24,478 nucleotides of DNA. Origin: a virus. Below, one piece after another: positions 23,881 through 24,141 of this stretch (within the stretch, counting starts at the first letter, position 1; each line of letters begins with the position of its first letter). Made by a program: the position numbers and the translations under genes. The notes under the pieces are model-generated. The model searched no databases. It was not told the DNA's origin and saw only the letters and a program-made list of their open reading frames with translations. Where the stretch lies: positions 1-24,478 of IMG/VR virus record IMGVR_UViG_3300007539_000215; one strand, 5' to 3'.

Positions 23881-24095
23881 CACTCGTGCCAACGCTCAAC
23901 AAAATCGTCAAATCCTCCCGCGCCTCCACAAGGGCGTTCTAGGCGGTCTTCTGGAAGAGGGTATAGTTCTTCCTTCATCTTTGATCTACGACGCTTTGCA
24001 GCGGCATCTAGAAGGCGATCACTGTCTGTTTCGGTGATCAATGTCATACCTTCTTCAATAAACTCTTCACTTTTATCTACTGGAAATAGTCCCAT
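23880..24095 (-). CDS. Small uncharacterised phage protein (71 aa)
   Basis: I do not know a function for this protein. Its sequence has an acidic N-terminal half (DKSEEFIEEG, TETDSDRLLD), a central basic helix (AAAKRRRSKMKEEL, about residues 31-44), and a tail with PCGGAGGFDDFVERWHE. No signal peptide or membrane segment is visible. It lies immediately before gp25, and its TGA stop overlaps the gp25 late box. Its ribosome site (AGAGAGG, eight bases before the ATG) is contained in the 3' arm of a 12-bp hairpin, so translation may be regulated. The gene is supported by the clean promoter/stop arrangement, the ribosome site and the absence of another gene here. A role in baseplate or tail assembly is only suggested by location. 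Confidence 0.75.
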   Translation of the reverse strand: MGLFPVDKSEEFIEEGMTLITETDSDRLLDAAAKRRRSKMKEELYPLPEDRLERPCGGAGGFDDFVERWHE

Positions 24096-24097
24096 TG

Positions 24098-24141
24098 AAA
24101 AAACCTCTCTAAAGTCTGTTTCCAGAACTTTTAGAGAGGTT
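24098..24141 (-). terminator. Terminator-like hairpin overlapping the RBS of the 71-aa gene
   Basis: A perfect 12-bp inverted repeat (AACCTCTCTAAA at 24130-24141 and TTTAGAGAGGTT at 24102-24113 on the minus strand) has a 16-base loop and runs straight into six T residues (24103-24098), which overlap the last two stem bases. That is a rho-independent terminator shape. The 3' arm also holds the AGAGAGG ribosome site of the 71-aa gene, whose ATG is only two bases past the U-tract. It could terminate upstream transcripts, hide the ribosome site, or both. Confidence 0.75.

Follow-up and report, generated by a model that had tools for sequence, protein, structure and literature searches.

The closest described functional neighbours of the leader analysed here come from T4: the gene 32 pseudoknot, the locks of genes e and soc, and the split ribosome site of gene 25 (PMC3014915, PMC535899). 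The T-even gene 32 leader has a compact H-type pseudoknot before its ribosome site, which is unstructured and rich in A+U. Repression over that site is nucleated by the pseudoknot, and a 2010 review considered this operator possibly the sole viral pseudoknot in translational autoregulation (PMC3014915). Genes e, soc, 49 and I-TevI have a late promoter box near a hairpin that hides the Shine-Dalgarno sequence, and their late transcripts omit the 5' arm of that hairpin. The structured initiation region of T4 gene 25 lies between the Shine-Dalgarno and the AUG of gene 25 itself, where it enhances initiation. Riboswitches of the preQ1-I type offer a further parallel, being very small H-type pseudoknots with an A-rich linker just before the expression platform. 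For cyanophages, the little RNA control that is known consists largely of predicted elements near the metabolic genes wcaG, manA, PhotoRC-II and glnA, and the CfrI antisense RNA; in the passages compared, two accounts of other cyanophage RNAs (PMC2864571, PMC9964418) place none at the gp25/gp6 leader locus.

The window, that is, the whole stretch of DNA analysed, is a 24,478-nt fragment of a T4-like cyanophage (IMGVR_UViG_3300007539_000215) whose closest isolates, S-RSM4, S-WAM2, S-B43 and S-H9-1, all belong to the Kyanoviridae. Its leader before a small gene, gp25 and gp6 resembles each of these systems in part. Like the gene 32 operator, it holds a probable compact H-type pseudoknot upstream of a ribosome site, but gene and sequence are different (the leader is that of small gene-gp25-gp6, not gene 32), and the ribosome site lies in a second hairpin that would compete for a pseudoknot strand. 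It shares with genes e, soc, 49 and I-TevI a late box near a Shine-Dalgarno-hiding hairpin; unlike theirs, its predicted late transcripts contain the 5' arm, and an alternative fold exists. As at T4 gene 25, RNA structure occupies an initiation region in the gene 25 neighbourhood, but in this leader the structure takes in the Shine-Dalgarno and stands before the small gene that lies upstream of gp25. The likeness to preQ1-I type riboswitches is that of a small H-type pseudoknot with an A-rich linker, in an unrelated gene context. A conserved core and two platform types are observed among the leaders.

The leader and its genes

The features to which the text refers are as follows.

24478-24341, minus strand: PAAR-like end
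24305-24159, minus strand: 48-aa basic protein (PHROG 516)
24163-24156, minus strand: late promoter box GATAAATA, matching the cyanophage consensus NATAAATA
24150-24147, minus strand: 5' strand of stem S1 (AGAG), starting at the predicted late transcript start; pairs with 24138-24135, with two-sided changes among relatives
24146-24139, minus strand: near-invariant loop AUAGCAAC, identified by conservation; L1 is A, and the pseudoknot strand is UAG(C)AAC with C24142 as a variable bulge
24138-24135, minus strand: 3' strand of S1 (CUCU), in the window's clade also part of the competing hairpin's 5' arm
24134-24129, minus strand: A-rich linker CUAAAA (pseudoknot loop L3); the linker ends in AAAA in 268 of 268 unique elements and is 76% A
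24128-24123, minus strand: tail GUUCUG with the invariant GUUCY, pseudoknot strand S2' and 5' strand of the downstream hairpin; complements loop 24145-24139 and anchors hairpin P3
24141-24098, minus strand: reported hairpin, from its fold the closed form hiding the ribosome site, with U6 (clade-specific, terminator-like version)
24110-24104, minus strand: Shine-Dalgarno region AGAGAGG in the hairpin's 3' arm, 8 nt before the ATG at 24095
24095-23880, minus strand: gene for a 71-aa protein, first behind the element (PHROG 1414/12480, unknown function)
23848-23456, minus strand: gp25 baseplate wedge gene (PHROG 261, E 3e-54)
23456-21660, minus strand: gp6 baseplate wedge gene (annotated homologues, in the same place in S-RSM4 and S-WAM2)

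The initial annotation had described a hairpin with a 12-bp stem, AGAGAGG in its 3' arm, six U residues and an ATG two bases further on, and folding bears this out. The minus-strand sequence of 24141-24098, AACCUCUCUAAAAGUUCUGGAAACAGACUUUAGAGAGGUUUUUU, folds into a stem of 12 uninterrupted pairs (24141-24130 with 24113-24102) with a free energy of -20.4 kcal/mol (z -4.29; none of 200 dinucleotide shuffles was equally stable), the 101-nt leader as a whole has a z of -3.16, and the stem is followed by six U, then CA, then the ATG at 24095. The hairpin is real, but two details depart from the description: the 16-base loop closes further as CUG-GAAA-CAG, and the first two U pair with AA at the foot of the stem. 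A terminator scan with a loop limit of 8 did not list it.

The loop of this hairpin is not conserved across relatives; what is conserved lies in and upstream of the 5' arm, namely AUAGNAAC (24146-24139) and GUUCY (24128-24124). The stem is kept in the window's clade, as GAGAGG or GGGAGG, but elsewhere it is rebuilt or weak, as in S-RSM4 and S-B43, even though the 71-aa protein is 95-100% identical there. Compensatory changes, proposed as something to seek among relatives, are present.

Beyond gp6 the minus strand carries two very long frames, 21655-10436 (3739 aa) and 8465-378 (2695 aa), of which the former stands where S-RSM4 and S-WAM2 have giant structural proteins, and a strong terminator-like hairpin (8544-8519, minus strand; 11 pairs, loop of 4, T5) lies between a 604-aa frame and the 2695-aa frame.

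A conserved single-locus element

As judged by sequence comparison, the reported hairpin belongs to a larger conserved element (24150-24096, minus strand), of which it forms the 3' part. In the leaders of 71-aa relatives the motif starts before the hairpin and runs RGRG-AUAGCAAC-CYC, a linker ending in AAAA, GUUCU and a variable ribosome-site region. The full order is late box, S1 (4-6 bp) with loop AUAGNAAC, A-rich linker, GUUCY, P3 with the Shine-Dalgarno, and start codon.

The element occurs in hundreds of T4-like cyanophage contigs, marine and freshwater, with a single strong copy per genome. Viral contigs scanned with two exact patterns (GGGATAGCAACCCC and GAGATAGCAACCTC), independently of gene content, gave 240 sites, with AAAGTT next in 214. 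Adding all other loci brought the motif count to 287, and in 281 of these occurrences gp25 or gp6 lies downstream; of the remaining six, four fall at contig ends. Searched with a covariance model, 12 of 15 whole cyanophage genomes have one strong copy each (E 3e-9 or better); the model found no element in S-PM2, S-RIM32 and S-H9-2, where the small gene is kept and is overlapped by the upstream gene. When loci were collected through gp25 with the motif unused, the element was present in 67 of 80 loci for a freshwater-type query and, as the strict pattern, in 20 of 76 for a marine query (Acionnavirus gp25), the latter also including diverged versions (e.g. L574-L578, L594, L598, L599, L601); gp25-anchored loci with a different layout upstream of gp25 have no element. 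Two diverged elements (L612 and L613; L613:1265-1290) keep S1 and the loop (GGGAUAGCAACCC) and have lost GUUCY, and are possibly decaying copies. Four loci with no element (L700, L665, L728, L730) have ordinary terminator-like T-run hairpins just upstream of gp25, e.g. GTGTCTCGAAAGAGGCACTTTTTT.

The small genes behind the element have a common PVD[RK]...LIT-type N-terminus or are apparently shortened forms; in L096, L117, L133, L136, L142 and L202 the N-terminal half (PVD...LIT) is gone, a C-terminal half like LREIANDDLxPKKHDF is kept and the element still stands in front. A search for an RNA-binding family in the 71-aa product found none. The whole element is absent from nine loci with a close 71-aa relative (L008, L011, L017, L021, L027, L043, L063, L066, L083), where the difference from S-B43 and S-RSM4 types resembles a clean insertion or deletion of about 45 nt; since these loci keep the gene, the element is not required for it to persist.

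A multi-copy regulon was rejected, second matches per genome being near chance level, as was a host origin: 194 cyanobacterial genomes gave three weak matches (best E 7e-4), in which the loop-tail motif was not found. A loose pattern run over bacterial genomes gave chance-like matches among the matches listed.

Stem S1, probable pseudoknot and ribosome-site hairpin

Comparison of leaders shows a stem, S1, forming around loop AUAGNAAC. Its three loop-adjacent pairs are complementary in all 86 unique motif-independent leaders (a filter removed any leader with under three pairs, though every motif-independent leader had at least three), and the letters vary: position 2 is G-C in 44, A-U in 41 and C-G in one, position 4 is A-U in 45, G-C in 23, U-A in three and C-G in one, and one locus (L689) has a wholly different stem, GUGCG/CGCAC. 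An alignment of 44 rows has two-sided changes at four of the six S1 pairs, and none of 500 shuffles or of the slid registers reaches the covariation score that it gives for the structure as a whole. In a 164-row gp25 tree, independent pairs at position 4, which no query fixed, agree by 8.8 to 0.3 for A/U (median p 0.008) and by 6.5 to 0.3 for C/G (median p 0.03); at position 2, fixed by the exact patterns in part of the data, agreement is 10 to 0.

The loop probably pairs with GUUCY as an H-type pseudoknot, on the evidence of conserved complementarity and bulge variants, with strict covariation weak. With one base bulged out, loop UAG(N)AAC complements GUUCUR, and 99.2% of cells pair in the 44-row alignment. 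The bulge may be C, A, U or G, or be deleted (AUAGAAC with GUUCUA), both strands being retained throughout; covariation in S2 is thin because most of its pairs never vary. A single lineage found by gp25 alone (L576-L578) exchanges A-U for G-C (AUGGAAC with GUUCCG), and its P3 changes in step, from CAGGAG to CGGAGG. A scan fixing both exchanged letters (loop position 12, tail position 37) returned 18 contigs, 17 of them with the motif before gp25, and a control scan found A12 opposite C37 in 70 contigs, with gp25 or gp6 downstream in 67. The exchange was withdrawn as proof of the pseudoknot, since the first scan had fixed both letters and the control recovered so many A.C combinations, which indicate that outer pair 12-37 is dispensable and tolerated as A.C. 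Where tail GUUCC meets loop A12 (L775-L842), the bulge is U in 42 of 70 contigs, far more commonly than with GUUCU. The span from loop to tail rises with S1 length (rho 0.65, a figure inflated by related rows), and such growth, together with the A-rich linker, fits the expectation for a loop crossing the S1 groove.

The same comparisons show a second hairpin, P3, built from the GUUCY strand and carrying or abutting the Shine-Dalgarno. Stems anchored at the C of GUUCY average 6.1 pairs, against 2.7 after shuffling, and the 36 distinct stems of at least five pairs are all built on this strand; because they mostly end between CAG and GAG, the Shine-Dalgarno would lie at or in the P3 foot. The marine clade of the window has, in place of P3, the longer reported hairpin, which uses the S1 3' strand, the linker and GUUCU. 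The idea that leader structure can lock the ribosome site is supported. Predicted Shine-Dalgarno pairing did not rise above a shuffled-spacer control, and selection for such pairing as such was rejected on that ground.

The cyanophage late box has the consensus NATAAATA (PMC2984593), and the proposal that the box at 24163-24156 puts the structure at the start of a predicted late message is supported. A TAAATA box lies within 30 nt before the loop in 72 of the 86 motif-independent leaders and ends 5-6 nt before the first S1 base in 52 of them. Since T4 late promoters start transcription about one helical turn downstream of the box (PMC2988020), S1 would begin at about +1 (about 24150 in the window). 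Many freshwater contigs have no late box, with the element directly behind the upstream gene.

Comparison with known RNA families

Rfam 15 gave no gathering-level match in ten element-bearing loci, and relaxed thresholds yielded nothing relevant and no PreQ1 match, with the sole exception of sub-threshold GP20-b (RF03003). This family scores 10-18 bits (best 17.8) against a gathering cut-off of 36.2, which was passed in none of 35 contigs and none of 15 isolates; it matches at E up to 1 in 13 of the 35 contigs, and in all 13 the match is the element. GP20-b (GGuG-AagGCaAC-CaCC-UAAAAAAG) and the element (GGAG-AUAGCAAC-CUCC-UUUAUAAAAG) are alike in one hairpin, its loop and an A-rich 3' linker, but GP20-b has another 5' hairpin, ends GCgUA and has no GUUCY; it is best described as a sub-threshold look-alike. 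We also take AGCAACCU (24144-24137) to resemble the T4 gp43 SELEX loop, a likeness set aside because its C position varies freely in the element. The family is absent from Rfam and, on comparison with open-licence papers, is apparently a new one of a known kind. It is a real, conserved leader RNA found at a single locus.

A proposed two-state leader and its rivals

We lean slightly towards a leader RNA with two states, carried by the late mRNA of the small gene-gp25-gp6 baseplate operon, and see the reported hairpin as its closed half. GUUCY can pair with either the loop or the ribosome-site hairpin but cannot fully serve both, and the 3' strand of S1 is likewise shared in the window's clade; it is because these strands have alternative partners that two folds would compete. 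With the pseudoknot formed the ribosome site would be open, with the hairpin formed it would be closed. How much baseplate wedge is made, or when, would then depend on a pseudoknot-binding factor or on the order in which the RNA folds as it is transcribed. The inferred switch would act on translation and sit at the predicted 5' end of the late message, with folds that exclude one another in vivo and switch in this direction. The closed hairpin in the window is far more stable than S1 alone (-20.4 against -3.6), and because thermodynamics favour the closed form there, and Shine-Dalgarno pairing does not exceed its control, folding during transcription or a bound factor would be needed to reach the open state. 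Counting against a switch, a P3 that starts one base later could form alongside the S2 core (GUUC), and the nine loci noted above have the same 71-aa protein without the element. The leader switch suggested by the initial annotation is in part supported, the piece it lacked being the alternative partner: stem S1 with the probable pseudoknot.

The main rivals to the switch are a protein operator and a constitutive 5'-end structure. In the operator reading, which we hold tentatively, the pseudoknot would be the binding site of the small gene's own product or of a phage regulator (gp32 and gp43 are examples), and this binding would repress the operon by autoregulation: the element travels with the small-gene family, loop and tail are near-invariant beyond what pairing alone needs, and T4 has precedents in the gp32 pseudoknot and the gp43 hairpin (PMC3014915), but the small gene persists in S-PM2, S-RIM32 and S-H9-2, which have no element, and no RNA-binding family was found for its protein. 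Operator binding is also a possible trigger for the switch. Rather unlikely is a structure that never switches, in which a pseudoknot formed by the opening nucleotides of the late mRNA and stacked on P3 guards the mRNA from 5'-end-dependent decay and presents the ribosome site; here S2 would use GUUC and P3 start one base later, both coexisting with GGAG at the P3 foot. The start of S1 at about the predicted +1 in most leaders fits this, as do the P3 stems, most of which enclose just the first AG of AGGAG and leave GAG after the stem, and the dispensability of pair 12-37, expected if position 37 belongs to P3. It sits badly with the many freshwater contigs in which the element follows the upstream gene with no late box, and with the long hairpin of the window's clade, which must break S1.

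An intrinsic terminator or attenuator just before the start codon, as first suggested, has the stem and U run of that form in the window (-20.4 kcal/mol, a 12-bp stem then U6), and hairpins of the U-tract class average -15.0 kcal/mol against -7.6. Only the window's clade has the tract, however (25 of 283 unique leaders); the remaining leaders keep the rest of the element, and the tract can equally serve as spacer between Shine-Dalgarno and ATG. Because the U6 shape is clade-specific, termination does not hold as a general idea, and a plain terminator, in our view improbable, was rejected; the terminator form looks like a clade-specific alternative output. On the two-state reading, closing may also stop transcription in the window's clade, since the closed hairpin there has absorbed the S1 3' strand and has the U tract. 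A timing lock of the T4 gene e type, opened by late transcripts that start inside the hairpin, is suggested by a late box beside a hairpin that sequesters the ribosome binding site, as in T4 (PMC3014915). It is very improbable and was rejected on promoter geometry: the box (24163-24156) lies upstream of the whole hairpin, which begins at 24141, so the transcript start is not inside the 5' arm and late mRNAs keep every hairpin strand.

Significance

An undescribed ligand- or protein-sensing pseudoknot switch, placed where the late message begins and gating production of the baseplate wedge through translational and terminator-type platforms according to clade, is a conceivable, if doubtful, form of the two-state leader; that such a sensing switch is common to many T4-like cyanophages, in the sea and in fresh water, we regard with equal reserve. 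The element itself is short and single-copy. T4-like cyanophages are very abundant in the ocean and their RNA control is little known; if core structural genes are widely preceded by such a leader RNA, virion assembly would have a general point of control there.
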